Shown here: piece after piece, positions 37,886-63,436 of the stretch | Numbering within the stretch: position 1 is the first letter of the stretch | Layout: every line of letters begins with the position of its first letter | From: Karstenula rhodostoma CBS 690.94 | Lineage: Eukaryota; Ascomycota; Dothideomycetes; Pleosporales; Didymosphaeriaceae | Assembly: GCA_010093485.1 (NCBI GenBank) | Contig: MU001498.1 | Span: 301,697-365,696 of the forward strand | Reading direction: 5' to 3' | Length of the DNA stretch: 64,000 bases | The notes under the pieces: generated by a model | The model's database searches: none | Told to the model about the DNA's origin: nothing | What the model saw: only the letters and a program-made list of their open reading frames with translations | Made by a program: the position numbers and the translations under genes

Positions 37886-37978
37886 TTACATGTAATAGTG
37901 ACGAAAAGGTGTTCTGGTGTAACAATGACCAATAGACACGCTGGAGTCGGGGTAGAACCAAATTGGGTTGCGTGGCCC
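37886..37978 (-). pseudogene. Cut-off 3' end of the ULD zinc-ribbon gene
   Basis: Thirty codons and a TAA stop on the minus strand, read directly off the left end of the big insertion. They begin Gly-Pro, continue RNPIWFYPDSSVSIGHCYT and end YYM. In the empty-site frame they follow the codons for Cys-Gly-Asp in the 9-bp duplication and rebuild a CGDGP motif, typical of the WxCxxC...GP zinc ribbon found in fungal ULD proteins. The 5' part of the gene is now 23 kb away at 61,343-63,436. Only one Cys remains in this tail, so the second half of the ribbon may already have been degenerate. Confidence 0.85.
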
Positions 37979-37987
37979 ATCACCGCA
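37979..37987. repeat. Left target-site duplication of the large element
   Basis: atcaccgca, repeated directly at 61,343-61,351. In the host gene frame it encodes Cys-Gly-Asp. Confidence 0.9.
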
Positions 37988-38059
37988 GGATCCACGTCGC
38001 GGGCAGGCCTCTAAGTAATCGCGGGCAGGCCTATAACTAAATTTAGTTAAGTTTTATAT
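37988..38059 (+). repeat. Left terminal inverted repeat
   Basis: The first 45 bp, to 38,032, are identical to the reverse complement of 61,298-61,342. Beyond that the pairing continues to ~38,059, with G-to-A and C-to-T changes on this arm. The motif tcgcgggcaggcct occurs twice, 22 bp apart, within the first 45 bp. Confidence 0.95.
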
Positions 38060-41000
38060 AAGCTAAGGAGCTATTTTAGGATACTACTTTATAGGGTAAA
38101 TTACTATAGAGAGAAGGTTTTTTTTAATAACTAAACTATTATATTACTTAATATATAGATTCTTAGTATTAGTATTTTAGCTAGTATTATATATTATATA
38201 TTATATCTATTACTCCCTATTACTAATACTAACTATTACTCTTTATTAATTTAACTAATTATATACTTATTTTATATAGAAACTTAGTTATAATTATATT
38301 AAACTCTATTTTTAATATCCCTAATATTAATAATAGTGCCTTATTACTATATTATAAAAAGTTTTTACCTTACTAATATATATAGGTAGCTAGTATAGTC
38401 CTATATACACTTATATATAATTATATATACTAGGTACCCTAGATATACTAGCTAGCCCTATATTTTTATATATATATATATATAGAGTTATATATAAGCT
38501 TATACTATTTATATTATCTATAGATTTAATATAATAGGTATAGTAGATATAGAGTATATAGTAAGTTATAATAATTATATACTATAATTTACTATAAAAT
38601 TATACTTATTCTATATATTATAGAGATTTATTATAAAATAGGGTAATTTAATAAAGTAGGGGGGATAAAAAGGTATATTATACTTTACTAATATATAAAT
38701 AAAAGAGGACTAAAAAAGTAGCTAAGGTATATACTTATTCTATACTATAGACCTCTATATAAGAGGTAGTATAAAATATAATATATTACTATAGCTTTTA
38801 GAACTATTTACTTCTAAATAGTATACTATAATTTATTATAAAATTATAAATATTTCTATTATAAACCTATATATAATTAATAGTATAGAATATATTATAC
38901 TATTCTAGTTCCTAGAACTATATACTCTCTAGTATTATTTTTATAACTAGGTTTTTTTTATACTATACCTAGATAACTATTTTATTAAAGGTCCTATTAT
39001 CTATAACTAAATACTTCTAAGGGCTATAATAAACTATATATAGTATTAGACCTATTTTAAGTCTTTTCCTTATATATCTTATTATACTAAGAGCCTTATT
39101 TTTTAATATCTCTAGTAGCCCTTTACTCCCTTTATACCTCTATATAAACTCCCTTTCCTTATTACTAGTATTAAGGGAAATTATAAATTTAATAGGGTTC
39201 TTTTATATTATTAGAATAATAATATCTAAGAATTTATATTTTATAAACTATCTTATATATATATTAGATATTATTATATATATTAATCTCTATAGAAACT
39301 TCCTTATTAGATATATTTAATATTAGCTTATCTATATTACTTATAATTATACTTATACTATTTAGTATATTATTTTATATACTACTACTATTAACTATAT
39401 ACTAATTTTATTAATACCTAAATTATTATTATTTATAATAAATTTATTATAGAGTTAAGTATAGTAGTTTTAATATATATAGTTCCTATAATAGTAGTAC
39501 CTACTTTACTAGAAATATTATAATTATTATAGTTAGATAGTATACTATTTATTAGCCCTATTTTTTTATACTCTACTAGTAATATAAGGGTATAGATATT
39601 AGTTAGATTATTATAGTTACTATTATCTAGGAGTAGTAACTCTACTATAACCTAATAGCCCTATTTAATAATATAGTACTATATAAGCTCTTTAATAAAA
39701 ATTTATTTTACTATACTTATTTAATTTTATAATCTTTTAATAGTATTATATACTACTTATAGTATTAGTAAATACCTTTATTTAGTAGTAAGGTTACCTA
39801 CTTTTAGCCTTATTTATTAATATTTATTAACTTAATCTTATACTCCTCTTTTATTCTAATAGGGCTATATATAGTAGAAATTTAAAGAAAGTTATTATAC
39901 TTTCTATTAATATTTAGAAATACCCTTCTAATTTAGCTACTTTAGTAATAAGGCTAAAGATAATATTAATTCTAAATAGATACCTATTAATTAGAAGAAT
40001 AAAAATTTTACTATAGAACTTACCTTTTTCTAGCTACTTTAGTATTACTATATTATAGTAGCTAGTTATTACTAATATAAATAGGTTATATATATAATTA
40101 ATATCTAAGGATAGGAAAGTAAACCTATATAGTATTTTTAATACTAGTATTTAGAATATAATACCTATATTAGGGGCTAATAAATAGTAGTAGTTATATA
40201 CTACTTTTTAAATAGCTACTAAGTATTATAAATAGTAAATCTAGATTTTATTATATATCTTAGTCTTATTAGTATATAAAAATTACCTTAAGTTTTAGTA
40301 TATATACTAGTTATAAACTAATATCTATAATATTATATAGTATATCCTATTACTCCTTAATATTATACTTATTATAGATCTAAGTCTAGATAGTTATAAT
40401 TAGGTACTATAGTAAGTTTATATATCTATCTATATATAAAGTTAGCTTTATTATTTTAATAGATTTTTCTTTAATTAGTAATATAGTAATTACTTTTATA
40501 GTAATAGTAACTATAATAATAGACTCTTCTTATAAGAATAGTTTAGATTTCTACTTTACCCTCTACTATAGTATCCTTATAGTAGATATAGATAATAATA
40601 TTAATAATATAAAACTAGATTTATTTATTAGTAATCTTAGAGTAGTAATAGGTAAAACTATTATATAGTTAAATTATACCTAAGTATTATAATAGTATAG
40701 ACTTATAATAGTCTATATAAGATAATATTTAAGGTAATTAAAAAGTTATTAGTAGGCCTTTTTACTTATTTTATTTATAATACTAGATTAATAGTAATAT
40801 TAATACTCCCCTTTTTCTTTTTAAGGCTTTTAGATTCTAGGTATATTAGTAGTATATAGCTATAAATAGTAAGTAACTTATACTCTATTATACTTTTATA
40901 CCTTTATAAAAGTCTTTTTCTATACTACTTTTAAAAGAATTTATATAGTTTTACTTATTAATATACTCTATTAGCTAATATTAATATCTAGTAAAAGTAT

Positions 41001-44000
41001 TAGTTAACTACTTATATAATATAAACTTTAGTAACTTATAGTAAATTTACTTAACTAGGTTAATATACTTATAGTACTACCTTACTCCTTATTATTTATA
41101 GAACTAGATAATATATATATTACCTACTTAAATTCTTTATTATCTAATAATACTTATTATATCTTATTAGCTTTAATATTAGAAGTTTATATATACTATA
41201 GATATAGTTAGTATAATTAATAGGAATAATAACTATTTAAAAAACCTATATTTATAACTCGCTAGGGGTATATATTAATTTTATAATCCTATAGTCTATA
41301 TATAAGTATATTCCCTATATAAGTATATTCCCTATATAAATATATATAACGCGCTAGCTAAAAGTAGTCTACTATTATTATTAATTATTCTATTATATTA
41401 TAGATTATTTATATTTATTAGTTAGTATACCCTTTTTTAGAATAATATAAGTATATTATACTATTATATCTATATTAATACCCTATTATCTATATACTTA
41501 TCTACTTAAGATATACCTTAGGTATAAATAGATAAGGTTTAATATATCCTTTATTAAGTTAGCTATTATATCTAGTCTATATATAAGTTTATAAATACTT
41601 ACTATTTATATTACCTATAGGATATATAATTAGGGATAAATATAATATATATAACTTAGTAATTACTAAGGTAGAATAGCTATCTTATATTAGTTTACTA
41701 TTAGACCTAAAGTTAGATCTTATATTAACTTATAGTATTCTAGCTATATTATACCCTTATATAGAGTTATTTATAGTTAACTACTATTAAGTTTTTATTA
41801 TATTAATATATCTTATAGAATAGAGGGAGTAGGGATATAATAGATATAATAGATATATTTATTAAATTACTTATTATTAAATTTACTTTTAGACTAAGTA
41901 TTAGGGTTTAGTATTTAACTATATTAAAGATTATTCTTAGAAGGTATTCTACTAGATATTATTTTATTAATACTACCTTTTTATACTTCCTACCTATAGG
42001 ATTTTATACCCCTTCTAGTACTAGAGTAGATTTATTTAAAAATCTTATAGTAAGACTCTAGTTATATATATTTACCTTTTTTTTATATTTTTATATTTAT
42101 TTTATAGACTTTAAAAAGTTTTAGTTATATTATCTTATAATTTCTAATAGATATTCTACTACTTTTAGGGATATAAATATTTTAGAATATATATCTACTA
42201 CCCTATATACTATCTAGAGTATCCTTCCTTTTTCTAAGTTTATTTAAATAGGTTTTCCTAGTATTTTATTCTTAGCTAGAGTAGCCTCTACTCCCTTATA
42301 TATAATATAATACTTTTTATTTAATATATTAAGAATTACTTATATAGTATTCTTAGCTATATATATAGAGTATTATATATATATATATTTAGATATTTAG
42401 AATTTAAATATATATATTATCGCGTGTTAGTATAGAGTATATACCCTAAAACTCTACTTAATTCCTTAGTATTTTATAGTTAACTATTAGAGGGATATAT
42501 ATAGTACTTAGTAGTATTAATTCTTATAGTAAACTATATTAAAGTATAATAGGATAATTTATAGTATATTATAGAAATTTACTCTAATATATTCTAATAT
42601 TCTAAAACTATTACTATAATTATATTACTTACTAGAGTTTAAAAGTAAATCTATTAACTTATTATATATATTTATATACCTTTTCTTTACCTATTTAATA
42701 TTATATTTTAATATATTTTATTTATTCTTTAACTACTAGTCCTTATTATATATAGTATTATATTCTAAAAAGTTAATATAATTATTAATAATAAATATAT
42801 AGTTATTATCTACTTTAGATTTACTATTAGACTATATCCTATTTCTTAGGTAGTTTATATTAGCCCCTTCTATTAGTATAATATATATTATATTAATAAT
42901 CTATACTATATAGAAATACTAATATACTCCTTAGTATCTATTCCTCCCTAAGTATATCTCTTATACTAACTAACTATAAAATTTAATAAATCTATAAATA
43001 TTATCTAGTTATTTCTAGTTAATTATATTAAATATTTTTAGTAAAAAGTAGATATAGGTATTCTCTTATTCTATAGAATATATAGTATACTATTCTATAA
43101 TAGTAAATATTAGCTAGATCTAGCTAATATATCTACTATTTAGAGGGGTATTATTATACTTATACTTTTAGACCTATATATTATACTTTAGCTACTTATT
43201 TTTACTTTACTAGTTTAGTATATAGTAGATATACTCTTAGTCCTTTTATAATATTTTACTATTTAGTTTTCTAGTCTCTTTCTAGTACTTAAAAGATAGG
43301 TAGATTATTATTATATAAAGACTAATTTAATTAGGGTTATTTTTAAATTACTTTATATCCCTCTAATAAGAGTTTATTCTACTAGTCTAACTCTTATTTT
43401 TTTCTTTTAGTATTACTACTAGTATATTATATAACTTAGGATAGTTACTATAAGTTATAGTATTTTAGACTATTATCTAAAAATATAGATTTAACTCTAT
43501 TTTTTATATAAGTAGAGAGTTAGTTATATTAATACTATAGTAGGCTAGCTATACTAGTTTAACTAATTTAGCTATTCTCTATTAGTCTAGCTATTATATT
43601 CTAACTAATACCTCCCCTATATTATATTTTATAAGGGTTTTATATATTTATATTCTTATCTAGTAAGTATTTAGGTTATATATCTATACTAGAGTATCTT
43701 TATAGTTAGTTAGATAAAACTATATTTTAATAAGGAATATATATAAGGCTTTTATATATATAATAGAATTATAGTTTAGTAATAGCCTATACTACTTTAC
43801 TATCTATATATAGTAAGTAATTATATATAGTTTTAGTATCTAAAAATACCTTATATTTAATAGGTAAAAGTTAACTAGCTCCTATTTATATATATTAACT
43901 TACTAGAATACTTTAAGTATATAGTTAAGTATTTCTTTATTATAGCTATAGTAATAGGAAAGTATAATAAAGTTATATATATTATAGAGATACTATATAA

Positions 44001-47000
44001 TATTTAGCCTACTCTTTAAAAGTAGAGTAAATACTACTAGTATCTATTTTATAAGTACCTTTTACTTATTTCTAGTCTACTATAATATTTAGCTAATTAG
44101 TATATTATTAAAAATCTTTATATTTAGAAAGTAAGGTATCTTATAGTAGTATTTATTAATTTAACTTATACTAAAAGTCTTATATTTTACCTTTAAGTTA
44201 TTATAGATTAAGTTAACTAAACTAGATAACTAGTTAATTATATACTTTATAAGTTCTTTATAGAGTTAATAAAATAGGTCTAGTATAAGAGTAGTATATA
44301 TATTAATAAATAGGAACCCCTATATAAAGTTTTTAATCTAGTATATATACTCTAGATATAAACTTTATATACTATCCTACTTTATTCTCTATATTATATT
44401 AATAGTACTCTTATAAGAGTAATATAGTATATACTCTATAAATATTTTATCTATATAGTAGGTATATACTATTATATTTTATATTTCTAGTAATATTTAA
44501 TATACTATATAGTATTATCTTATTTTTACCCCTATTATTATTACCTATTCTTTATAGTCTACTATAATTCTATAAATAATTAGATAGTATATTCTTTCTA
44601 CTCTATCTATATATTTTATATATATACCTATTTAGCTAATATATTTAATAGCTATATAAATAGATATTAGATAGTATTATATAATTAGCTAATAGTACTT
44701 ATAATCTAATAATTTTACTATTACCTTATAATATATATTTATAATAATATTTCTATTATACTACTTAATAATTAGTAGTATAGTAGTAAGGATATTATCT
44801 AAGACCTTTCTTAACTATTAGATATATATATCTAGATTACCTATTAATATATATACTAGCTATACTACCTAGTTACCCTAATAGTTACTAAATTATATTT
44901 TATTAACTCTAATTATAATAGGTATAATAGTAGAGTTATTAAATAGTTATATTTATATATTCTACTATTAGTTAGAATTTTATAAGTCTATATATATCCT
45001 TATCTTATAGTAAGAACTATTACTATTAGTTATATTCTTTAGTATTTACTCTAGGGTATATATTAAGTATTCTTTAAATAGCTTAAACCTAATCTAAAAC
45101 TCTATTACCCTAAGTATATTTTATAAGAGAAGTTACTCTACTCCTCTAGTCTAGGCTTTATTAAGTATCTTATCCTAGGTAGGTAGGTATATAGAGTATT
45201 CTTCCTAACTATAGTTAGTAGTACCTATTTTAATATTATCTAAAAGTATATACTACTATTTAGTATTTTAAAATTATATATTAGATAAAAAGTTTAATAA
45301 ATACTTATCTATAAATAAAAGGTTAATATCTCTTTTAGTATACTAGATATTATATAACTACTTAGTAAATATATAGCTTATTTTATCTTTAAATAGTATA
45401 TATAGATTATTATTATAACTTACTATTAGTATACTATATACTAGTATATATACTAGAAGGTAATACCTTTATTATAACTAATAGAATAATCTATATATAG
45501 GGGTATCTACTTACTAACTAGTAATATCCTTAAAAGTCTAGTAATTACTTATAACTAAAGTACTTACTATATATAAGGATATTAAAGCTATCTATTAATA
45601 ATTACTAGTAATATAGTTAATATCTTTATAATACTTATATACTAATACTATATTAAAGCTCTATATACTATAGTCTTTAATATTACTACTAGCTTTAATA
45701 TCTATCTTATTATTATTATTTTTAATATATATCTTACTATTATTATCTTTACTACTATAGTCTATATTATTATTATATAGGCCTATATTTAATAGACTAT
45801 TTACTTAGTTTATATTAGGTATAGGTAGTATAAACCTAGCTATATAGGTTTTATAATTATACTAATACTATAGCTTATTAGAATATTTTACTATATTTAT
45901 TACTAATAACCTATAATCTATCTCCTAACCTTTATATACTATAAGTAATATATACTTAATCTAGACTAGCTCTTTAATATCTAGCTATATATATACTAAA
46001 GGCTAAAAATAGAATCTATATTTATATAAGATACTCTAATATATACTAAGTAAATATAAAATATAGTATACGATTACTTACTATAAACTATAGTAATTTA
46101 TATACTACTTTTAATATATTTAATTTATTTATATAGTAATATTATATATACTAAGCCTATATCTATTATACTCGAAAATTAGGGAATTTTTTAGTAAAAC
46201 CTTAATTTTTTTCGTGTATTATCTAAAATATACGGGGATATAAAACCTATATAGTATATACTCTATAGCTAGTTAAATATAATACTTCGCGAGTTTCTAT
46301 AAGCTAATTAAACTAAATATCTATTATAATAAGTTAAGGTTATTAAATTATATATAAAGCTTTATTCTAATAAGTTTTCTAGTATTATAGATATTACTAT
46401 ATATTACTTTAGAAATTTTTTAAAGATAGTAATTAGTGAGAGTTATTATAATTACTTTATAAAGAAGTACTTTTAGTATATAGTAGATAGTTTATATTTT
46501 AATAATAAGACCTTACTAAGAGTATAGGGGGAACTAAGGATAGAATTTAACTTTAACTTTAACTCTAAGGTTAGATATAAGGGTATTCTTAATAAATAAG
46601 GTTATAGTAAGTTATTATAGAATTAATTATTAATAATTCTCTATAATAGAGATTATTAAAGTGTCTTTTTTACTAAGCCTTTAATAAGGGCCTTTCTAGT
46701 ACTAAGTTATACTATATCCCTTATATAATAGTATAGTATTAATATATAATAGTAGTATACTAGCCTTCTAGTAATTACTTAACTATACTATTTTTAATAG
46801 TATATAGTAGGCTAGCTATATATTTAGTTATATTAACCTATAATAAGTTACTATAAATTACTATAATATCTAATACCCTTATTAGTCTTAAAGGAAATCT
46901 TATTATTACTAGTAATTTTATTATTACTTTTATTATTACTTCTAGTATTCTAGTTAGTATTACTTTTACTATTAGTTTTATTATTACTCTTATTCTTATT

Positions 47001-47107
47001 ACTATAGGATAAATATAAAAACCTATCTTTTAGGTTTAAATATTTATATTTTTTAATAAAAATAAGTTCTATTTACTCCCCTTATCTAGAACTATTATAA
47101 TATATAA
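38060..47107. mobile_element. Degenerate AT-rich interior, left part
   Basis: About 9 kb of RIP-saturated sequence with no open frame of 60 codons and practically no CA or TG dinucleotides. Isolated CG dinucleotides survive, for example near 41,348 and 42,420. It does not obviously match the two copies further right in direct orientation, so it probably derives from other transposons, whose class cannot be read by eye. Confidence 0.7.
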
Positions 47108-47440
47108 TAGAGATTTTCCTACTAAGAAATTCTATCCTTTCCCCCTAGAAGTTCTTCTATTTCCCCCTACTTCTTAGAGAGAATTCTAGATTACCTCTCC
47201 CCTATCTATCTTATACTAGCCCTATATCTTTAAATACTTTTATAAAGTATATAGAGGTTCTTTAATACTAACTAGTTAGTATTAAAGAACCTCTATATAC
47301 TTTATAAAAATATTTAAAGATATAGGGCTAGTATAAGGTAAATAGAGGAGAGGTAATCTAGAATCCTCTTTAAGAAGTAGGGGGAAATAGAAAAACTTCT
47401 AGGGGGAAAGGAGATAGAATTTCTTAGTAATAGGAAAGCT
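47108..47440. repeat. Large palindrome, arms about 165 bp
   Basis: A near-perfect inverted repeat with essentially no spacer, centred at 47,273/47,274 on aactagtt. Arms share blocks such as taaagaacctctatatactt, gatatagggctagtataag and aagaagtagggggaaatag. Most differences between the arms are A/G or C/T. It is either a relic foldback element or two inverted element ends. Confidence 0.85.
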
Positions 47441-47733
47441 ATAGGGTTTTTTTCTACTAGAATTTTATAATTACTACTAGTTTAATAATAGTATACCTAG
47501 TAGTTATATTAATAGTAACCTTAGTAGCTATATAAATATTAACCTTAATAGTAGAAATAAATACTTTTTCTAGTAGAAGAGGTATAATAATAAATATTAT
47601 AGCTACTATCTAAAGTATTTTATTAAGATATTATTTATAGGTATATATTTATACCTTTATATTAGTAAGTTAGCCTTTACTTTAGTAAGATATATAATAG
47701 GTATAGTAATATTTATTATAAATTATACTAACC

Positions 47734-50700
47734 TATTATAACTAGCTTAGTAATATATATAATAAAGTATAGTAAGTAAGTTACTCTAGTAATATATAGC
47801 GCGTAGATATATAGTAACTATTTATTATATATAAATATATCTACTATCTACTATAATCTATAATTACTATACTTAATTAAGACTATTACTTTTTTTCTCT
47901 CTATTTATAATAATCTATATCTTCTCTACTACTTTATAATTACCTTAATAAATTATAACTATAATACCTATACTTATAATACTAATAAGTATTACCTTAC
48001 TAGACTTAGCCTATATTAGTATATTTTATAATCTTATTATAAAGTATAATAGCGAGATAACCCTTAATATACTTACTAGAGTTTTTAACTATAATATATT
48101 TATATTTAACCCTATATTTATTATAATTAGGGAGATAATAGGCTTATACCTAGATATACTCTCCTATTTAAAGGGCTTAGATAAATTAGTAGCTATTATA
48201 GTAGTAAAGAGTAAAGTATATAATAAAATAGAATAGATAGAAAAGGGTATTATCCTATAAGAGTTAGGGATTCTACTAAAAGTTTTTAACTATCTATAGT
48301 AAGTAGTTCTTTTAAGGTAATAAGAGGATTAGGCCTATAAAGACTTTATAATAATACTAAAATATACTTACCTACTACCTTAAAAGTAATTAATAATTAA
48401 TAGTATATATAGAACTAAAGAGTATATATCTAAATACTAGTATATAAAGAAGAATATATAAGTATTACTTAGAGAAAACTAGCTCTTTTAATTTAATAAA
48501 ATTCTTATTATAGTATATAATAGCTATAGCTAATAGCTTACTAATCCTATTATCTAGCTATATACTAGAAATCTAATTTAGTCTATAGATAATATAAAGC
48601 TTATTCTCTATAAAAAAGATTAAATTAATAGATTTACTTATAAAAGTATAGAGTATAGTATACTCTAAATTAAGATATAGAAAGTAATAGAGATATATAG
48701 TTATAAGCTATTTAATAAAGTAGTAGAATTAAGATAATAGTTCTAGAGTATAGTAGAGGATATTTTTATTCTACTAGAAATATAGAGCTTTATTACTAAC
48801 TAAGCTTATATACTAAAGGAACTTAGTTAGGCTATATAGCTAGTTATAGTAGTTAATAAGAATAAAAATATATATAGTATACTTCCTATATTTATATATA
48901 CTATAGTATACTAATAATTATCTTAAATATAGTAATTATATAATATATACGTTAGATTAGAAAGGCTATCTAGACTAGTAATATAAATAATATAATAATA
49001 TTAAAATAGGGATACTAATATATAAAAGGCTAATAATAAGAATATAAAATTCTACTTCTTACTATAATTTATAGTATAGAGCCTTTATACTATATACCCT
49101 TTTATAGTAAAAATATATAAAAAACTACTACCTTTATACTCTCTTAATAGACGAAGTACTACTATATATATATCTAGTATAAGTATATAGATATACTAGA
49201 TATTATAATAACTAGTACTAAAGAATTAATCTTATAAAATATAGTAATTTATTATAGTATTTAATAAGAGAACCTTATAAATAAAGTATAGCCTAGTAGT
49301 ATAAAGATAATTATAAAATAGAATAGAAATATTAGGAGTTATAGTAATTTATTATACTACTTAGTAGTTAAACCTAGTATAGATAGTATAGTATAGGAAT
49401 ATAAATATACCTATAGTATAAATAGAGAGGAATATAAGTAGGGGTAATTTAGTAATAATATAGAATTATACTATATAATAAAGTAATTTATAGTAAAAGT
49501 AGTAATAGTAAATAGCGGTATTATTTATTAGCTAGAGAGGGTAACTATACTAGTTTAAAATAGGTTAGATTACTAAGCTAAAGTTATATAATAACTAATA
49601 TAGAGTAATAATAATAAACTAAACCTTCTCTTTTATATTAAGTAATTCTATAATATAGGATAATAATAATAAACTAATATTCCTCTTTTATACTATATAA
49701 TCTTTATAATACTATTTATTTTTAATATATTATATATATATCTATAGCTATAGTAAAGTAAAAGTAGGTTATAGTAGTCTAGTTTAAAGGTATAATAGAA
49801 TAGTATAAGTAGATAGTAATAAACTACTAATAATAGATATTTAAGGGTATTATAATAGTTAGGCTTTAACTATAAGGATTATAGGTTAGTATATAGGGTA
49901 AAATAGTATAGTATACCCTCTATAAGGCCTATAAGGATCTAATATTATTTAGTTATACCCCTTAAATAGATATTTATAAAATAGTATATAATAAGATACT
50001 TAGTAAACTATAAATAGATAAGTAGTTTAAGGTCTTTTAGAACTACCCTTATTTAGTATTTTAGGATAAGGAGAAGGTAAAGATTTAGTATAATAGAGTT
50101 ATACTTAGAATTTAAATAGTAGTATTATAGGTAATAAAAAGCGAGTAGAAAGCCCTAATAATAGGTATAGTAAGTAAAGGAAAATTTAAAAACCTAAATA
50201 TATTAATTCTACTATAAACTTTAAAGTATATAGAATTAGTTAGTTTTACTATAAGTACTAGTATAACTAGTATAACTATACTTTATATACTCTATCTTAA
50301 TACTAATTTAATAACTTATATTAAGAATAACTAGCGCTCTTTTAATATAAATAGACTAAATTTCTAGGTATATAATAAGAGTATAAAAGTCTTTTCTATT
50401 TAATTTTTATTATTTATCTAATCTAACTATATTTCTATAATAATTAGCTAAGAAAATAGAGAGGTTAGGTTAACCTTAGTTATACTTAATATATTAAAGG
50501 ATATTACTAGTAAGAATCTTAGTATACTAGATTTAAAAATAGTATAGTTTAATTTATAGTTACCTAGTACTATAATACTAAAAAAGATTAGGACTACTAC
50601 TATACTATAGACTAAGGTATAGTAATAAGTAGTAGATAGGGTATTAGAATAGGATATTATAGTTACTTCCTTAAATATTATACTAGAGGGTATATATATT

Positions 50701-53700
50701 CTTACCCTACTTCTTTATAATATTATACTAATAAATCTACTAAATAAGACTCTTATTAAACTATATAGTAGACTCTAATAATAAGGTATTAGGAATAAAA
50801 TAGTTTATAGCTAGTATAATAATACTAATAGTTAAAAGAGTAATAGTTATATATAGCTAGTATAAAAAGATAAGAACCTAGTATCTATAAATAGAAATTT
50901 AGTATAAATTATAGTAAACTAATATCTAATAGCCTCTAGCCTATTAGTATAAAGGATATTATCTAGTCTACCCTCTACTACTATTAATTTCTTAAATACT
51001 AAGTAAAGGTAATAAGGACTATTTAAAGATTTAGATAGTAATAATAAGTTATTAATTTTATACCTTTTTATACTAGCTCGCGACTTATTAGTATATTTAT
51101 AAGCCTCTAGTAATAGCTTAATAAGTATATATTATTTATCTCTATAAAAATTACTATTACTATATATAATAATACTATATAACCTATTATTAGTAGATAT
51201 AAATAAAGTAAAGGTACTTATAATAGTAAATAGGATAGACCTATTTACTAGTAGTAAGGCCCTAAATATAGAATTTAGATAAACTTTAATATAGGAATAG
51301 TTAGAGGAGCTTAAATATATATTATAGTAAGTTACTATAAATTCTTATCTAGATAGAATAATACTAATAACTATATATAGGGTAAATACTACTATTAATA
51401 CTAAACTTAGCTAGGTATATACCTAGATAACCCCTAAGTTATACCTTAAGATAGCTAAAATATTTATACTTAATAAGAATATCTTAATAATATTATATAA
51501 ATAAATTCTATTCCTATCTATATAGGGCCTTATATCTAAAATAGGAATATTCGCCTATTAATAGATAGTACTAACTAAAATAGTTATATAAAGTAAAATA
51601 TTTAGAGGTAGTAGTAATAGATTTAGACCTAGTATAGAAAAGTTATACCTATATCTAGTAAAGTTTATTATAAAGTACTAGATTACTTAATAGAATATAA
51701 GTATCTAGTAGTATTAAAGTAGTTATCTAGTAAAGACTTATTTATAAAAAGGCTAGAATAGTCCTTATCTAAGCTAGAATATATATTTATTCCCTTATTT
51801 ATACTTAATATAGTCTTAAATATATATATATAAGATATTAATAAAATATAGTTAGCTTTTTATAGTTATAAATACTAGTAGTAATTAGGTAAATATTATA
51901 TTAAGTTTACTATACTAGACCCCTATAGTAGGGTATAAGGTACTACTATTCTATTTTATAATTAAATATAAACTAATAAGATATATTATATATAACTAAC
52001 TTAAAATATACTACTAGTAGAAGGTATAATAGGATAAAGAGAATATAGAATATAAATAGCTATAATAATATAATTTACTTAAAGGCTTTATACTACTAGC
52101 CCTATAAGAACTAATAGATATTACCCTATTCTCTAAACTTTCTAAAGATAAGCTAGCTATTATATATATAAAGCTATAGTATAGTAATATTATTATTAGT
52201 AAAAATAATAGTAAGAGTCTAAGTTAGGTATATAACCTTAAAGAGTTTAAAGAAAGGGTTATAGTATAATATAAAATAAGCACTCCTATACTATATAGCC
52301 TAAATCTAGTAAATATACTAGAAGATATAATATTCTAGGGGTTAAGTATAGAGGTAGGGGTATTCTATACTTTACTTATACTATAAATTATATACTAATA
52401 GATTAAGAAGACTAAGGCTATAATAACTAAAAATAAGAAGAATATAGAGTTAAGTAAAGCCCTAATTAATATTAGAGATATTATATAGAATAAAGATTAT
52501 AATATCTATTCTATAAAGTTTTAAATATTTAAGTCTCTAAGTAGGCTCTAGTATATAAAAGTAGCTTAAGATAATTTTAGCCCTATAGTTTATTAAATTA
52601 TATTAGAAACCCTATATAAAAATAGACCTAGAATACTTATAAACTACTTCTCCTATTTTATAGTATAGGAGTTCTAGTAATCTAAGTATAAGAGTAGCTT
52701 TCTAAATAAAATATATAGGGTAAAGTATAATACTATTCTCTAGTACCTCTTATATAAATATAGTTTAGCTAAATAAAGTATTATTAATAATTAGTAAGTC
52801 TAAGGGGTAAAGTTACTACTATATCCTTATAAAAGGCTAACTAGAATCTTTAATATAATCTAAAAGGGGAATACCTAAGTAGGTTATAATATAAAGAAGG
52901 TAGGCTAAAAATATAATATATTCTAAGATACTAAGTTTATTAATTATAGTAAGACTATAGTATATATTATATAGACTCTACTTATTAAGTATAATAAGTA
53001 TATACTAAGACTTAATAAGAAGCCTCTACTATAGATAGCCTAAATAGAACTTATCTAGTAGGATATTACTATTTAATATAATAAGGTAAGTAGAGTAGTC
53101 CTCTAAGATACTATTTAAATAGTATAGAAGAAAAAAGAGAGTGCTATAACTAGTAAAAGTAAAACTATTAATATTAGTATACTTAAATTATACTATAACC
53201 TCTATATTATAAGTACTTTACTATTACTAGTATAGTTCTATAAAATATATAGTATTAATACTTATACTAATAAACTCTACTTAATCTATAATAATCTTAA
53301 AAACTCTATACTCTTTATATACTTTAATAAAGTAATAAAGGGTAATATAAAATAGATTAAAATTAGAAAATATATCCTTAAAGTAGAGAATATAAGGAAG
53401 AGTAAAAATTTAGATCTTAGCCCTAATAGGAAGCTCTACTAAAATAAAATACTACTTAGTACTAAAATACCTATTATAGCCCTTCTCTACACTATTATAA
53501 GTATACTATATATTACTATAAGTTACTATACTAATAATAATAGAGTATCTAAAAGCTACTATATAATTAAGTAAATATAACTATTAAACCTTAATCTATA
53601 AATAATACTATAGAGATAAAACTTAAAATCTCTCTAATTTATAATAGCCTTATATTTCTAGAGTAGTAGGTTATAGTTAATATATTTAATAATATTAATA

Positions 53701-54290
53701 GTCTATTAAGGGTTATTATAGCTAATATACCCTTATATACTAAGGGGGTTAATCTAATAGGAGTAAATATAGTAATTCTTAACTTATTATTACTAAAAAT
53801 TAAGATATATAAATAGTTTATTTAAAGACCTATATATATAGGATAGAAAGAGTTAAAGGTATATATAATACTATTCTATAATATATATAGTTAGGTAGAT
53901 ATATATATAATAGAGTGTAAAATATTTTTAGAGAAGATAAATAAGGTAATTATAAAGAATACTAAAGGTATAAATATTTATAAGGAAAATAGTACTATAG
54001 TAATTAATTAAAGTAGTAAAGGATAGTATTATAATAAGGTATAAGGTAAAGAGAATATAATATAGTAGTTAGTATAAGTAGTAATAAAAGTTAGCTTAAA
54101 GTAGACCTATATATAATATCTAGACTGAAATATATATAGTAAACTATAGTAATTTAGCCTAATATTAAAATAAAGAAGTAATAATACCTAAATATAATAA
54201 TAAAATATATTAGTAGAGGATAATTAACTAGAGGGTAGTAGATATAATATTACTTCTAGTAGTTATAGAGAATTATACTAAATTATTATA
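47734..54290. mobile_element. RIP-degenerate repeat unit, copy 1 (~6.6 kb)
   Basis: Starts at tattataactagcttag and ends at aattatactaaattattata, both shared with copy 2. Many long blocks match copy 2 in order and orientation, for example the one starting actataatttatagtataga at 49,061. The length, direct orientation and lack of recognisable long terminal repeats would suit a Tad-type LINE or an LTR element with unrecognised ends. No reading frame survives, so the class is unresolved. Confidence 0.75.
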
Positions 54291-54611
54291 TATAATATAT
54301 AGGTTTTCTTATATATATTTTAACTATATTCTAATAGCTATATATAATAAAGATAACCTTATACTAGCTCTAAAAAGTATAAAAGCCCTTAATTAACTAA
54401 AGGTATAATTTCTTAGCTATTTAGCCCTTATATTTAGCTATAGCACTTAGAATTCTTTAATAATTATAATAATATAGGAAAATTCCTAAAACTTAAAAGT
54501 TATTATTAGGCTCTTATAAATAAGTAGTATAGGTAAGAGCGCTAATCTAGAAAATACTAGAGCTAAGTTTAACTATATCTTTATAAAGATCTATAATTCT
54601 TTTTACTAATT
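54291..54611. other. Spacer between the two repeat copies
   Basis: About 320 AT-rich bases with no counterpart beyond either copy end. RIP-mutated like the rest. Confidence 0.5.
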
Positions 54612-57600
54612 TATTATAACTAGCTTAGTAGGATATATAATAAAGTATAGTAAATAAACTATTTTAGTAATATATAGTATATAGGTATATAATAACTATT
54701 AATTATATATAAATATATCTACTACCTACTATAATTTATAGTTACTATACTTAAATAAAACTATTATTTTTTTCCTTTCTACTTATAATAACCTATACCT
54801 TCTCTACTACTTTATAATTACTTTAATAAATCGCGATTATAGTATCTATACTTATAATACTAAATAATATTAGTCTACTAGATCTAGACCTAGTCTATAT
54901 CTATATATTTTATAATCTTATTATAGAGTATAGTAGTAAGGTAACCTTTAATATACTTACTAGAGTTCTTAACTATAATATATCTATATTTAACCCTATA
55001 TTTACTATAATTATAGAGATAATAGGCTCGGCCCTAGATATACTTTTTTACTTAAAGAGCTTAGATAAACTAGTAGCTATTATAGTAGTAAAGTATAAGG
55101 TATATAATAATATAGAATATATAGAAGAGGTTATTCTTCTATAATAATATAGAATTATATTAGAAGTTTTTAACTATCTATAGTAGGTAGTCCTTTTAAA
55201 TAAATAAGAGTATTAGGCTTATAGAGACCTTATAATAATACTAAAATATACTTACCTATTACCTCTAAAGTAATTAGTAACTAATAGTACGCGTAGAATA
55301 AAAGTATATTTACCTAATTACTAGTATATAAAGAAAGATATATAAGTATAGCTTAAAGAGAACTAGCCTTTTTAATTTAATAAAATTCTTTTTATAGTAT
55401 ATAATAGCTATAGCTAATAGTTTACTAACCCTATTATTTAACTATATACTAGAAATCTAATTTAGTCCCTAGATAATAAGAAATTTATTCTCTATAAGAA
55501 AAATTAAGTTAGTAGATTTACTTTTAAGGGTATAGAATATAGTATACTCTAGGTTAAAATATAGAAGGTAATTAAGATATATAGCTATAAGCTATTTAAT
55601 AGAGTAGTATAATTAGGATAGTAGTTCTAGAGTATAGTAGAAGATATATTTATTCTACTAAAAATATAGAACCTTATTACTAACTAGGCTAGTATACTAG
55701 AGGAGCTTAGTTAGGCTATATAGTTAGTTATAGTAGTTAATAAGGATAAAAATATAGATAGTTAGTAATATCTAGATAAGGATACTAATATATAAAAGGA
55801 TAATAATAAAAATATAAAGTTCTACTTTTTACTATAATTTATAGTATAGAGCCTTTATACTATATACCCTTATATAGTAATAGTATATAAAAGACTATAG
55901 CCTTTATACTCTTTTAATAGATAAAGTACTACTATATATATATCTAGTATAAGTAGGTAAATATACTAGATATTATAATAGATTATACTAAAGAATTAAC
56001 TTTATAAAATATAGTAGTTTATTATAGCTTTTAGTAAAAGAATCTTATAGGTAAAGTATAGCCTAGTAGTATAAAGATAACTATAAAATAGAATATAAAT
56101 ATTATAGGTTATAGTAATTTATTATATTATTTAGTAGTTAAACCTAGTATAGATAGTATAGGATAGGAATATAAATATATATATAGTATAAATAAAGAGG
56201 AATATAAGTAAGAGCTATTTAGTAAAGATATAGAATTATACTATATAATAAAGTAATTTATAGTAAAATAGTATAAAATATACTAGGTATTATCTATTAG
56301 CTAGGGAGGGTAACTATACTAGTTTAAAATAGGTTAGGCTACTAAGCTAAGCTCGTGTAATAAATAAGATAGGGTAATAATAATAAAAAACTAATACTCC
56401 TCTTTTATACTATATAATCTTTATAATACTACTAATTTTTAATATACTATATAGGTATTTATAACTATAGTAAAGTAAAAACTAATTATAGTAGTCTAGA
56501 TTAAAAATATAGTAGAGTAGTATAAGTAGATAGTAGTAAACTACCTATAATAAATACCTAAGAGTATTATAAAGAGTAGGCTTTAATTATAAAAATAATA
56601 GGTTAGTATATAGGGTAAAATAGTATAGTATACCCTCTATAAGATCTATAAAAATCTAATATTATTTAGTTATACCCCTTAAATAGATACTTATAGGATA
56701 GTATATAATAAAATACTTATTAAACTATAGATAAATAAGTAGTTTAAGGTCTTCTAGAACTACCCTTATTTAGTACTTTAGGATAAGGAGAAGGTAAAGG
56801 TTTAGTATAATAGAGCTATACTTAGGATCTAAATAGTAGTAGTATAGGGTTTAAAGAATATATATAAAGACTTAATAATAAGTATAGTAAATAGAGAAAG
56901 AATTTAAAGTTAGAGTATATTAACCTTACTATAAAATATATAGTAGAGAAAATTAGTTAGTTCCTCTATAAGTACTAGTATAACTAGTATAACTAAATTT
57001 TATATACTCTATATTAATACTAGTTTACTAACTTATATTTAGAATATCTAGTATACTTTTAGTAAGAATAAACTAAGCTTCTAGGTATATAGTAAGAGGT
57101 TAAGAGTTTTCTTTATTTAGTTTTTATCTTTTATCTAATATAACTATATTTCTATAATAACTAGCTAAGAAGATAGAGAGGTTAGGTTAACCTTAGTTAT
57201 ACTTAATATATTTAAGGATATTACCTATATAAACCTTATTATATTAGGTCTAAAAATAGTATAATTTAATATATAATTACCTAATACTCTAAGACTAAGG
57301 AAGATTAAAACTACTACTATACTATAGACTAAGATATAATAACTACTAGCTAATAGAATATTAGAATAAAATATTATAGTAGTTTCCCTAAATATTATAC
57401 TAGAGGGTATATATATTCTTACCCTACTTCTATATAATATTATACTAATAAATCTATTAGATAAGACTTTTATTAAACTATATAGTAAAATCTAAATATA
57501 AGGTATTAGAAATAATATAGACCCTACTAATAAAGCTATTAGTAACTATTATAATAAGGCTAGTACTTAAGAGAGTAATAGTAGTATATAGCTAGAGTAA

Positions 57601-60600
57601 AAAGGTAAGAGCTTAGTATTAATAAATAGAAATTTAGTATAAATTATAATAAATTAATATCTAATAGCCCTAGCCTATTAGTATAAAGGATATTATCTAG
57701 TCTACCCTCTACTACTATTAATTTCTTAGATACTAAGTAAAGGTAATAAGAACTATCTAAAGATTTATATAGTAATAATAAGTTATTAAGCTTATACTCT
57801 AATATACTAGTTTATAACTTAAGGATAGGTTCGCGAACCCTTAGTAATTATATAATAAGTATAAGCTATTTATTTCTATAAATATTACTATTACTATATA
57901 TAACTTTACTATATAATCTAATACTAGTAGATATAGATAGAGTAAAAGTAGTTATAAAGGTAGATAGGGTAAATCTATTTACTAATAGTAAAGTCTAGAA
58001 TATAAAATTTAAATAGAGTTTAATATAAAAATAGTTAAAGGAACTTAGATATATATTATAGTAAGTTACTATAAATTTATACCCTACTAGAATTATACTA
58101 ATAACTATATATAGGGTAAATACTATTATTAATACTAAACTTAGCTAGATATATATTTAAATAACTATAGAGTTATATCTTATAATAGCTAATATATTTA
58201 TACTTAATAAAGATATACTTATAATATTCTATAAATTAATTTTATTCCCCTTAATATAGGGCCTTATATCTAGAGTAGGAATATCTACCTACTAATAAAT
58301 AGTATTAGCTAAAATAGTTATTTAAATATTTAGAAGTAGTAGTAATAGATCTAGACCTAGTATAGGGAAATTATATTTATACTTTTTAAATTTTATTATA
58401 AAATACTAGATTACTTAATAATACCTTAGTATTTAGTAATATTAATAGGGCCTCCTAGTAAAGTCTTATCTATAAGAAGGCTAGAATAGTATTTATCTAA
58501 GCTAAGATCTATACCTACTCTCTTATTTATACTTATTATATTCTTAGATATATATATATAAAATACTAATAGGATATAGTTAGCTTTTTATAGTTATAAA
58601 TACTAGTAGTAGCTAGATAAATATTATACTAAGTCTACTATACTAGGCCCCTATAGTAGGGTATAAGATACTACTATTCTACTTTATAATTAAATATAAA
58701 CTAATAAGATATATTATATATAATTAATTTAAAATATACTACTAATAAAAGGTATAATAGAATAAAGAGAATATAGAGTATAAATAGCTATAATAATATA
58801 GTTTACTTAAAGGCTTTATATTACTACCCCTATAAGAAGTAGTAAATATTATAGTCTTTTTAGAGCTCTTTAATAATAAGCTCGCTATTATATATATAAA
58901 ACTATAGTATAATAATTTAGCTAGTAGTATAAATAATAGTAAAAGTTTAAAGTAGGTATATAATCTTTATAAGTTTAAGGGAAGATCTATAGTATAATAT
59001 AAAATAAATACTTATATAGAGTATAGCCCCCCCTTAATAAAGATACTAAGTAATATAATATTTTAGAAATTAAGTCTAAAGATATAGATAGTCTATACTT
59101 TACTTATACTATAAATTATATAATAGAGGTTTAAAAAGACTAGGGCTATTATACTTATAGCTAACTACTATATAAACCTAAGTAAGGCCCTAATTAATAT
59201 AAGGGATATTATATAGGATAAAGGCTATAATATCTATTTAATAAAGTCTAAAATATTTAAGGTTCTATATAAACTCTAGTATTAAAAGATAATTTAAGAT
59301 AACTTTAGTCTAGCTATTTATTAGATTATATTAGATACTATATATAAAAATAGTACTAGAATTCTTATAAACTATTTTTCCTACTTTATAGCTTAGAAGT
59401 TCTAGTAATCTAGTAATATAGATAACTTTCTAAATAAAATATATAGGGTAAAGTATATTAGTATTTTCTAATACTTTACCTATAAATATAGTATAGCTAA
59501 GTAAAAGACTATTAGTATTTAGAAGTCTATAGGGTAAAAGGTACTACTATACCCTTATAAAAAGCTACCTATAGTATTTACTATAATTTAAAAAGGTAAT
59601 ATATAAGTAGCTTATAATATAAAGAAAATAAGCTAAATATATAATATATTTTAGAACCTTAAATTTATTAAATATAGTAAAATAATAGCTAATATTATAT
59701 AAACTCTACCTATTAAGTATAATAAGTTTATAAAGAGATTTAATAGAAAGTTTTTACTATAGACTACTAATATTAATTTTATCTAGTAGAATATATCTAT
59801 TAAATATAATATAGTAAGTAGAGAAGTATTTTAAAATATAGTTTAAATAGTATAGAAAGAATAAAAGGACTATATTATAATAAAAGAGAGTAAGATTATT
59901 AATATTAGTATATTAAAGTCCTATTATAACTTCTATATTATAAGTACTTTACTATTACTAGTATAATTCTATAAAGAGTATAATATTAATACCTATACTA
60001 ATAACCTTAACTTAATTTATAAAAATATTTAAGCTTTCCTACTTTTTATATATTTTAATAAAGTAATTAAGGGTAATATAAAATAGGTCTAGATTAGAGA
60101 GTATATTTATAAAGTAGAGAGAACTATAAAAAGCTAATAGTTAGAACTTAGCCTTAATAAGAAGTTCTACTAAAATAAAATATTACTTAGAACTAAAATA
60201 CCTATTATAGCCCTCCTCTATACTATTATAGATATACTATATATTATTATAATTTATTATACTAATAATAGTAGGGTATCTAGAATCTACTATATAATAT
60301 AGTAGATATAACTACTAAACTTTACTTTATAAACTAAGCTATAGATAATAAGATAGATATTATACTTATCTATAATAGTTTTATATTTCTAGAGTAGTAG
60401 ATTATAGTTAATATATTTAATAACTTAGATAGTATACTAAGGATTATTATATCTAATACTAACTTATATACTAAGGGTATTAATCTAGTAGGAGTAAATA
60501 TTATACTTATTAACTTACTACTACTAAAAATTAAAAAGTTTAAATAATTTATTTAGAAACCTATATATATAGGGTAGAAAGAGCTAGAAGTAATTACTTT

Positions 60601-61033
60601 ACTATTTTATAATATAGATAGCTAGGTAAATATATATATAATAAAGTATAAGTAATTTTTAGAGAAAATTAATAAGGTTATTATAAAGAATACTATAGGT
60701 ATAAATATTCTTAAAAAGGATAGTAATATAGTAGCTAGTATAAGTAGTAAAAAATAGTACTAGATTAAAGTATAAGGTAAAGAAATTATAATATAGGTAA
60801 GAATATAAGTACTAGTAATAAAAGTTATCTTAAGATAAAAATATATATTATAAGTAAAATATATATAGTAAACTATAGTAATTTAAACTAATATTAAGAT
60901 AAAGAGCTAATAATATTAGGGTATAGTATTAAGATATACTAGTAGAGGTTAATTACTAACTAGAGGCTATAATAGTAGACTTTATAATCTCTTAGGCTAT
61001 AGTAATTATAGTAAATTATACTAAATTATTATA
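54612..61033. mobile_element. RIP-degenerate repeat unit, copy 2 (~6.4 kb)
   Basis: The second copy in the same orientation. The offset to copy 1 falls from 6,878 at the start to 6,770 near 55,821 and 6,729 near 60,940, so this copy has lost about 150 bases by small deletions. Substitutions between the copies are largely A/G and C/T exchanges, as expected when RIP acts separately on two copies. Confidence 0.75.
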
Positions 61034-61159
61034 AATTTATTTATATATACTTATATATACTTATATATATTTATATAGTTAGTATATAATTATATATAGT
61101 TATATATATTTATATAGTTAGTGTATATTTATATATATTTAATATACCTATATATACCT

Positions 61160-61297
61160 ATATACACCTGCGCACTCTAGATAGTATAGGCACAAATACG
61201 CACGAATGTGCACATCTACGCAGCTCTCCTGAAAAACTTTTCATGATGTGCCTTGGCCTGTAGGACCCCCTATATACACTTAACTGGATTTAGTTGC
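61160..61297. mobile_element. Unmutated right end of the large element
   Basis: From about 61,160 normal base composition returns, with CA, TG and CG dinucleotides present (cacctgcgcactc, gaatgtgcacatctacgcag). The sequence is still inside the element. This is the only substantial piece of the transposon that escaped RIP besides the TIR tips. It has no counterpart at the left end beyond the TIR. Confidence 0.7.
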
Positions 61298-61342
61298 AGG
61301 CCTGCCCGCGATTACTTAGAGGCCTGCCCGCGACGTGGATCC
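61271..61342 (-). repeat. Right terminal inverted repeat
   Basis: The reverse complement of the left TIR. The outer 45 bp, 61,298-61,342, are identical to it. The inner part keeps TGCA and CCA where the left arm has TATA and TTA, so this arm appears to be the unmutated original. Confidence 0.95.
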
Positions 61343-63436
61343 ATCACCGCAGTTACTACAAAACCAGCTCGTTTCCGGAAGTGGTTTTGGGGTGTATGTG
61401 CGCATCCACCTTTCAAAAGTGGGTGTACGTATCGGCTGTTCAATAAAGTGCGTGCGTTTGTAAATACTTTCGCCCCTATTTGTTATTTCCCAAGAAGGGA
61501 CCGCTTGTGAACTAGTACTTGTGTAGCTTTCCCACGAGCAACCTTCACTGTATCGCCGATTAGTTATAGATGCTATGCGTGCTAGAGTATAAGGGGTGAC
61601 ATACCAGAAGGACCGAGAAGCATGAGTCTGTGTTGTGGTGGATCCACACCTTGGACACTGTCCCGCAGTGACTGCGGTAGATCTAAACATTATAGCTGAC
61701 ATAGCTATACGTTGACCAGGATAGATTGAGCGATTCCACTTGGAAGATTGTTTCCCAATGATTCGACCCCGGTCATCGATGATGTGGAACAGATCTTGTT
61801 CAATCAGAAGACCCTCAGATTCGTTGCGGAACAGTATCTTCAGCTGCACTTGAAAATGCTGTTGGAAAATGAGCCAGAGCGAAACACACAAAGATTGCAT
61901 ACTCACATCCCAGTGCCTGAAATACTCGTACGGTAATCGATGAACTCTGCCCAATACGTCCTCGAAAAGGATTAGGTCTTGGAGGGACATTCGCGAGGTT
62001 GTTGGAAATATCCTCCAGATATGGCTAATGGTCACTAGAAGCTGCGGTGATATAGATCTGAATAGAAATTAGTTGGTGTCGCATTATGTAGAGTGTATAA
62101 GGTGAAATTCCATCACGGGATTACCCAATTGAACGAATAGACGCGAGGGCAGAAGACGCACATGAAGTATCTTGCAAGCGCAATGAGCTTTACCGTTGAT
62201 TCCAGAAGTCTAAAAGGCATTTGGTCAACTAGGGAATCTCTCGAGTTCATGGGGAAAGGGTAGCTAACTTACAGTCTACACAGTTGAAGCCCAATCTCTC
62301 GTAACAGTATCAGGTGTTCTTGTTCCAGCGGAAGTCGCGGTCCAGACACTACGATACCCTGGCTGTGAATGCTGCAATTCTGCCGTTGGTCTGCGTCCCC
62401 TTCCTCGGCATCTTGCGTTGTGTTTGTTGCACAAGTACAACTGTGTCCACGGCGTATGCCAGAAGAATCAGAACTGATGGGGTCAATAGGCGCATTTGGT
62501 TCTGTCATCGATGCTGAGCCAGCTGCAGGCGCAACTGAGACACCATATGCAGTCCGATGCTGTGATACATTTGCTAGGTCAGCCCCCAGTTGCTTGAGTG
62601 TCTGGCGTTGCTTCGAGAGTTCGGCACCCTGTCGACCCATATTCCTGCGGACCTCATCCTGGTCGATCTGTATATTGTTGATGGCAGCGGTAAGGTCTTC
62701 GAGTGTGTCTTCCTGCCGAGCTTGAGATTCGGCTTGTTCGTGTACATGGCGCCGCATTTCAGACTGGATATTCTGGATGATCTGCAGTTTGCTCGTCTGA
62801 GCCGAAACCACATCAACCAACTTTAAAAGCTTTGCATTCAGTTGAACGCATAATTTGGATTGTTCTTTTTGCATATCCTTCTGCTCGGGTTGCCCCGTTT
62901 CGATCTGAGCCTTGATGAGATCACATTGCTTGCCGATGGATTCGCCATGTTTTCTAATAGTGTAATTAGTGTGCCATCGCCTGTATCGTGTCGATATCCA
63001 CTTACAGCACACATACGCTCAGCAAGACAATAATCTGATCAATAAACATGCCCAAGTTTTGTAAAAGCTTCTCCACCTTCTTGGGCAAATCGAATGTATA
63101 CCGTGTCTTCTTCGCGAATCCAGACAGTCTGCTCTTCTCTTTACGGGACCCCAGAGTCGACTCATATTTGCATAGCTCATTCTGCTCAAATTTGATGAGA
63201 AGTGCACCGGCTGAGCTTGCGAGTGCGGTTAAAGCATTCAGGCTGGCTCGATCAAGACCTTCAGGTCGAAGATCTTGCAACGTTCCTAGTACAAGAACAT
63301 AGCGCTTCAGGTTGGCCGTCAAGAGTTGATACTCTGATGCGGCACCGCCCGTCTCCTTCAGAGCCTTGTAGGTCCGATTGAGGATCGATATCGCCTTTGC
63401 GATGTCACCAGCGCTCCAGCCGAAGCCCACCGACAT
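61316..63436 (-). CDS. STAND/HeLo-like N-terminus, ULD and zinc-ribbon protein, 3'-interrupted
   Basis: Exons: 63436-63006, 62953-62273, 62209-62125, 62041-61907, 61858-61605, then 61547 into the element, stopping at 61316. Phases close throughout. The 48-nt and 57-nt introns at 61,859-61,906 and 61,548-61,604 lack in-frame stops and could be mistaken for coding. Residues 1-143 (FGWSAGDIAKAISILNRTYK, a helical bundle) look like the N-terminal domain of fungal STAND/NLR-like proteins. Residues ~145-370 are coiled coil. About 430-505 are a fungal ubiquitin-like domain (ULD_2 type): FEDVLGRVHRLPYEYFRHWD, IIDDRGRII, YPGQRIAMSAIM. Then come CPRCGS and FCEGC (Cys from a spliced codon), a zinc ribbon, and WFCSNCGDG, the start of a second. 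The insertion replaces the last 30 residues by 8 element-encoded ones (GSTSRAGL); predicted length is 605 instead of 627. The exon 3/4 join (gtaatc to accgcag) has an alternative using a gtgatg donor and the earlier attcag. Confidence 0.8.
61343..61351. repeat. Right target-site duplication of the large element
   Basis: atcaccgca, partner of 37,979-37,987. It coincides exactly with three codons of the host gene. Confidence 0.9.

Follow-up and report, generated by a model that had tools for sequence, protein, structure and literature searches.

The DNA analysed here, a stretch of 64,000 nucleotides from Karstenula rhodostoma CBS 690.94 (the window), contains an AT-rich block of 23,355 bp (37,988-61,342) that is bounded by 45-bp perfect terminal inverted repeats (TIRs) and interrupts a gene, which raised the question of whether the block is a single transposon of unusual size, as an initial annotation had proposed, or has a more complex make-up. 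A copy of the 9-bp sequence ATCACCGCA lies directly outside each end (37,979-37,987 and 61,343-61,351), the only other occurrence on the plus strand being at 35,815, and with ungapped extension the outer inverted repeat comprises 65 nt at 94% identity. The TIR, the duplication and the span had all been annotated exactly to the base. The single insertion read from them holds for the outer ends and not for the contents, in which two nested families can be recognized, and we consider it very probable that the block consists of one transposon nested within another, each of them badly degraded by repeat-induced point mutation (RIP).

The outer junctions are recorded in the reading frame of the interrupted gene, which lies on the minus strand at 61,316-63,436 and encodes a ULD_2 domain (PF22893, E 1.8e-12). 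In our own three-exon model (63,006-63,436, 62,273-62,953 and 61,316-62,057) the gene as it stands specifies 617 aa and now ends ...CSNCGD-GSTSRAGL-stop, eight codons within the right end of the element, while joining the frame across one copy of the duplication adds 30 further codons and a stop at 37,886, so that 37,886-37,978 (minus strand) represents the detached 3' end of the gene. On both points translation bore out what had been annotated. The deposited protein of the locus (P171DRAFT_519710, Karstenula rhodostoma CBS 690.94, 598 aa) differs from our model in its middle splicing and ends CSNCGDGSTSRAGL, indicating that the annotators likewise used the stop of the element; the deposited gene model, which is a predicted annotation and no proof of expression, thus terminates at an element-encoded stop codon.

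It had further been suggested that the join rebuilds a CGDGP zinc ribbon, and for the first half of the motif this stood. The rejoined gene reads CGDGPRN, compared with CGDGPHN in a ULD paralogue on contig C17 that reads WYCGNCGDGPHNIAIQTGCSSCGH; the match of the paralogue spans the join, weakly (E 0.008), and so weakly supports a P-x-N following it. The second half was not recovered: the rejoined tail, PDSSVSIGHC, is without the second pair of cysteines of the paralogue, and the zinc ribbon would therefore be rebuilt in its first half only. A protein database search for more ULD relatives, in which the best 8000 candidates were scored, returned, apart from the query protein, a single relative from Lentithecium, which does not have the tail. 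A gene close to the nest, at 35,183-36,886 of the window, has an HSF-type DNA-binding domain (PF00447, profile positions 53-99 of 100 in an open frame).

Given that the TIR, the duplication, the reading frame and the independent copies of both families described below all agree, an isochore edge, against which the initial annotation had also argued, and a misassembly were each rejected as the main reading of the block. The GC content of the inner 22.9 kb is 20%, versus 53% for 17.9 kb of host sequence, and without its 250-bp ends the inner element has 3 CA and 8 TG dinucleotides in 22.4 kb, as against 1174 CA and 1267 TG in the 17.9-kb host stretch; it is nearly saturated with RIP. The marks of RIP start 45 bp within the left end of the block, where the TIR copies begin to differ, and at the right end the last ~180 bp are largely free of RIP mutation. 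The outermost bases of the nest are unmutated despite the near saturation inside.

Copies of the outer TIR elsewhere allowed the family to which it belongs to be defined. The genome was searched with a TIR pattern of 24 bases, permitting up to 3 mismatches, and 70 sites were found, against 0 for the reversed pattern used as control. From these sites 30 TIR pairs were formed, the window included, that range from 182 bp to 33 kb (11 of the 70 sites stayed unpaired, and the left end of one pair was taken from a different search). A 9-bp duplication is exact in 15 of the 30 pairs and agrees at 8 of 9 positions with one transition in another 9, together 24/30, whereas only 1 of 870 mismatched flank pairs, used as a control, reaches 8 of 9. 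A fitting 9-bp duplication is absent in 6 pairs, one of which, on C24, has, as judged by eye, one of 10 bp. MULEs make duplications of 8-11 bp, and the fungal MULEs named in the survey that gives this range include Hop, Phantom-Ca, Mutyl and others (PMC6446971); the duplications of the 24 pairs fall within it.

Copies of 3.47-3.52 kb recur alongside many of 0.18-0.73 kb, and those that bear a putative transposase measure 3.47-3.49 kb: the MULE domain PF10551 was matched at the same place in all three ~3.5-kb copies examined (six frames were scanned for one of them and the three minus frames for the other two), with E values of 4.7e-6, 2.5e-5 and 3.3e-4 and with scores of 27.4, 25.1 and 21.5 bits that all lie below the Pfam cut-off of 27.6. 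The first 362 bp of the block match 15 of the 29 other MULE copies (83.6-94.5%) up to position 361 or 362 and not beyond. These matches, together with a base-by-base comparison with copy C7s, delimit the left part of an outer MULE-derived element at 37,988-38,349 (plus strand), in which the first TIR (37,988-38,032) is followed by subterminal sequence; the right part, 94 bp at 61,249-61,342 (plus strand), contains the other TIR of 45 bp as well as the stop codon at which the gene now ends. Between the two lies an interior of 22,899 bp. The family resembles the fungal MULEs of PMC6446971 in its 8-11-bp duplications, its TIRs of tens of bp and the probable MULE domain of its 3.5-kb relatives; the copy in the window differs from those elements in being a 454-bp derivative without a transposase.

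The interior has termini and copies of its own. It corresponds to a RIP-saturated, Plavaka-type transposon at 38,350-61,248 with the ends 5'-CATCACGAAAAG...CTTTTCGTGATG-3', placed with the help of the other copies and of a BLAST alignment with the C22 copy that covers its full length at 93.5% identity over 22,918 columns. The left end in the window has been mutated by RIP to TATTATAAAAAG, and it is on this RIPed form of CATCACGAAAAG that the left ends of the copies align, CATCACGAAAAG itself being seen in one C4 copy; right ends read CTTTTCGTGATG or RIPed forms of it, and the sequences outside the ends differ among copies. In PlavakaB, 2- or 3-bp duplications accompany CATCA...TGATG ends (Kojima 2025, PMC12730594). 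The window has RIPed TATTATA on the left and TGATG on the right, and the C4 copy in which both ends are un-RIPed reads CATCACG...CGTGATG, with the 5'-CATCA...TGATG-3' termini of PlavakaB.

With 22 of 762 candidates scored, at least nine further copies of the left block (38,340-47,120) were found that measure 8.6-8.8 kb at 92-94% identity, and the right-hand 6.5 kb also has further copies (28 of 104 candidates scored). The right-end pattern, small derivatives counted in, occurs at 79 sites, with 0 in the control. Seven copies have two ends, at 22,899 (the window), 22,917, 23,089, 22,988, 16,639, 16,579 and 30,129 bp; four of the seven are thus 22.9-23.1 kb, the lengths being taken from end coordinates and the sequence read through only for the 22,899-, 22,917- and 16,639-bp copies.

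These observations bear directly on the proposal that the 23.4 kb form a single giant element, whether a MULE or some other kind with TIRs, that moves by its own genes, a reading that we now regard as very improbable. It is true that the outer TIR and duplication are perfect, and that other MULE-end pairs of 10-33 kb are present in the genome. However, the interior is found elsewhere with its own ends, and the MULE TIR core, sought in 12 flanks of six other long copies, was present in 0/12; the interior resembles the interiors of 3.5-kb MULEs weakly; at least three of the large pairs (C13, 27 kb; C17; C19) clearly contain the sequence of the 3.5-kb MULE itself together with other DNA; and among the copies fetched no other locus combined the two MULE ends with this interior at the same junction. 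The TIR that had been assigned to one unusually large element belongs to a family whose copies with a putative transposase measure 3.47-3.49 kb, and the interior to another. Matches to the MULE at 1e-5 were obtained in 6 of the 12 flanks, five of them weak, AT-rich and like those given by a reversed control. The sixth, 265-400 bp outside the right end of the C8 copy, is a real piece of MULE (83% over 136 bp), indicating that that region contains MULE sequence as well.

The content of the interior points to its family. On the minus strand at 44,239-45,273, with stops read through, the Plavaka transposase domain PF18759 can be followed over profile positions 1-321 of 325 with E values of 3.5e-13 to 3e-12, interrupted by many RIP stops; the domain was also recovered from the C22 copy (E 6.7e-15) and a C4 copy (E 8.5e-17), so that all three copies tested were positive, with scores of 49.9, 55.6 and 61.8 bits against a cut-off of 26.3. 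The read-through transposase, damaged as it is by RIP, gave no match in a protein database search, and a genome-wide Pfam search for Plavaka returned no candidate, its controls being silent too. Matches to HcgF and HTH_37 in the left block were below the Pfam cut-off. Two 139-nt arms without a spacer form a near-perfect palindrome at 47,135-47,412 (132/139 arm positions pair), which lies near the sign change in the AT skew of the block and is present in the C22 copy too. To its right lie two diverged tandem units of 6.5-6.6 kb each, U1 (47,723-54,348) and U2 (54,601-61,090), both probably on the plus strand, that are 81.7-85.5% identical to each other.

What the tandem units encode is less readily approached. 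When U2 was scanned in six frames, both in the window and in a C4 copy, nothing rose above the Pfam cut-off, DUF3876 falling below it. When U1 and U2 were compared, 8 of 14 gap runs were multiples of three, versus ~4.7 by chance, which hints that the two may have diverged as coding sequence; in amino-acid conservation one plus frame was best in 7 of 9 windows, at about positions 3300-6000 of the unit, a comparison made by eye and not decisive. Neither the density of stop codons nor the phase of U1/U2 transversions, as tests of coding frames, gave a result. A TET/JBP domain was not seen in the frames scanned of the inner element, where RIP could hide one. Starships are giant fungal mobile elements defined by a tyrosine recombinase captain. 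The present element is giant like them and may differ in its content: no such captain (DUF3435) was found in six frames of 38,350-47,120 and U2 or in U2 of the C4 copy, in a scan whose sensitivity RIP lowers.

That the tandem units lack a recognized domain, and that RIP may hide their genes, would also fit a stack of unrelated transposons, a Plavaka block plus two others, that does not constitute a unit. The C11 copy, which is ~7 kb longer, and the C3 copy (22,988 bp), which has no U1 among the matches listed (28 of 104 candidates scored), are compatible with such a stack. On the other hand, the end-to-end alignment with the C22 copy preserves the order of the blocks and both ends, and the C4 copy at 74-97 kb has the same blocks in identical order among the matches listed. 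Deletions reaching into the units or lying between them would account for the two copies of 16.6 kb: one, in C4, is without the stretch from the centre of the palindrome into U1, and the other, in C8, resembles a fusion of U1 and U2, so that both look like deletions of a longer form. We therefore judge a stack to be unlikely, and treat the 22.9 kb as one element.

How the two elements came together can be proposed in three steps. In the first, a short non-autonomous MULE derivative, of 454 bp without its insert, would have entered the last exon of the ULD gene, with a transposase presumably provided by the 3.5-kb relatives; the structure shows the result, a 9-bp duplication and a gene that ends eight codons into the element. 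In the second, the 22.9-kb Plavaka-type element, which has its own TIR and resides inside the MULE derivative, was probably moved by its own transposase, which its left half encodes on the minus strand, as the domain, the ends and the copies suggest. In the third, because both families are repetitive, RIP would have converted almost all CpA and TpG within the nest, sparing 45 bp at its left end and ~180 bp at its right. The giant element may have landed in a MULE already within the gene, or the MULE may have acquired it elsewhere and brought it along as cargo, and the resulting structure would be identical.

At its own junctions the inner element is flanked by TA on the left (the last 2 bases of the left MULE part) and TG on the right (the first 2 bases of the right part), which would be equal only if RIP changed one of them. 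Of the seven long copies, three have TA on both sides, weak evidence in flanks that are AT-rich, and the two flanking dinucleotides are one transition apart in three (TA/TG in the window, TA/TG in C4 and AG/AA in C3) and two transitions apart in one (C22, TA/CG). The long copies are thus mixed, and support for a 2-bp duplication, as against the 2 or 3 bp of PlavakaB, comes from C2, where a small derivative of the inner element lies in a MULE copy with TA on either side and the empty site, in MULE copy C8s, is TA. Compared with C7s, the junction in the window lacks about 150 bp (149) of MULE sequence, which points either to a target that had suffered a deletion beforehand or to a loss of DNA upon insertion; none of the copies fetched was an empty 454-bp MULE with this junction.

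A composite of MULE and small Plavaka derivative, with the derivative at the same MULE site, is found not only at C2 (L025) but also at C20 (L018-L019) and C12 (L046), and the outer flanks of the three differ. This related composite makes a cargo route feasible, and suggests that MULEs in this genome may carry nested Plavaka DNA. It speaks for the variant in which the Plavaka element first entered a MULE elsewhere and the MULE transposase then brought the entire 23.4 kb to the ULD gene in a single step. The C2 composite retains a 9-bp duplication with one transition, and MULE ends may thus have moved the nested derivative. However, the known composite is ~1.3 kb rather than 23 kb, and the one at C20 is without its left 103 bp and any remaining duplication (2 of 9), so that the three loci may instead have been copied by segmental duplication. 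For the window, transport as cargo is accordingly conceivable but rather doubtful, and under either order of events we retain the nest of two transposons as our reading.

As for known systems, the inner element shares with PlavakaB (PMC12730594) a Plavaka transposase domain, a CATCA start and TGATG finish, and probably a 2-bp duplication. The families in that study were reconstructed from Agaricomycotina, whereas the present host is an ascomycete of the Pleosporales, and the present element differs from those families in its 22.9-kb length, its tandem diverged units and its palindrome and, as far as the frames scanned show, in having no TET/JBP domain. The 'Plavaka giant repeats' of Amoebidium (PMC11244446) are similar in being giant, at up to 50 kb, and in having tandem sequence beside a Plavaka transposase; they differ in their host, a unicellular relative of animals, and in that many of their genes encode tyrosine recombinases, none of which we recognized here. 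Passages in two further papers concern a mushroom (PMC8290104 and PMC9674265), and another paper names a Plavaka transposase, with no further detail, among the secreted-protein groups of necrotrophic plant pathogens. Among the papers listed by a literature search on Plavaka, one that did not extend to the founding paper, none described an element of this kind from Dothideomycetes, and the giant repeats of Amoebidium were the sole parallel it yielded for the size and layout of the 22.9-kb element.

What had appeared to be a giant TIR element or an isochore thus resolves into three layers, a gene, a MULE and a giant Plavaka element, with all junctions visible. An ascomycete is shown to contain a Plavaka-type element of 22.9 kb whose two ends are known and which has further long copies. 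It is possible, and we suggest it only tentatively, that giant Plavaka transposons of ~23 kb, marked by a palindrome at the centre and a tandem pair of large genes that have diverged, form a class of their own in Dothideomycetes, with MULEs as carriers. If this were so, one transposase would move the whole giant element of another family, and some AT-rich blocks of RIP-active fungi would be explained by mobility at two levels.

Two of the large MULE pairs have internal structure of their own. In the 11.7-kb pair on C19 (L044-L045), ~8.1 kb lie inside a 3.5-kb MULE, with ~9 bp of MULE imperfectly repeated at the junctions, and related sequence occurs in the C17 and C20 pairs. Within the 33-kb pair on C17 (L040-L043) there are direct repeats in tandem, one set of 5.1 kb (92.7%) and one of 4.7 kb (93.7%).
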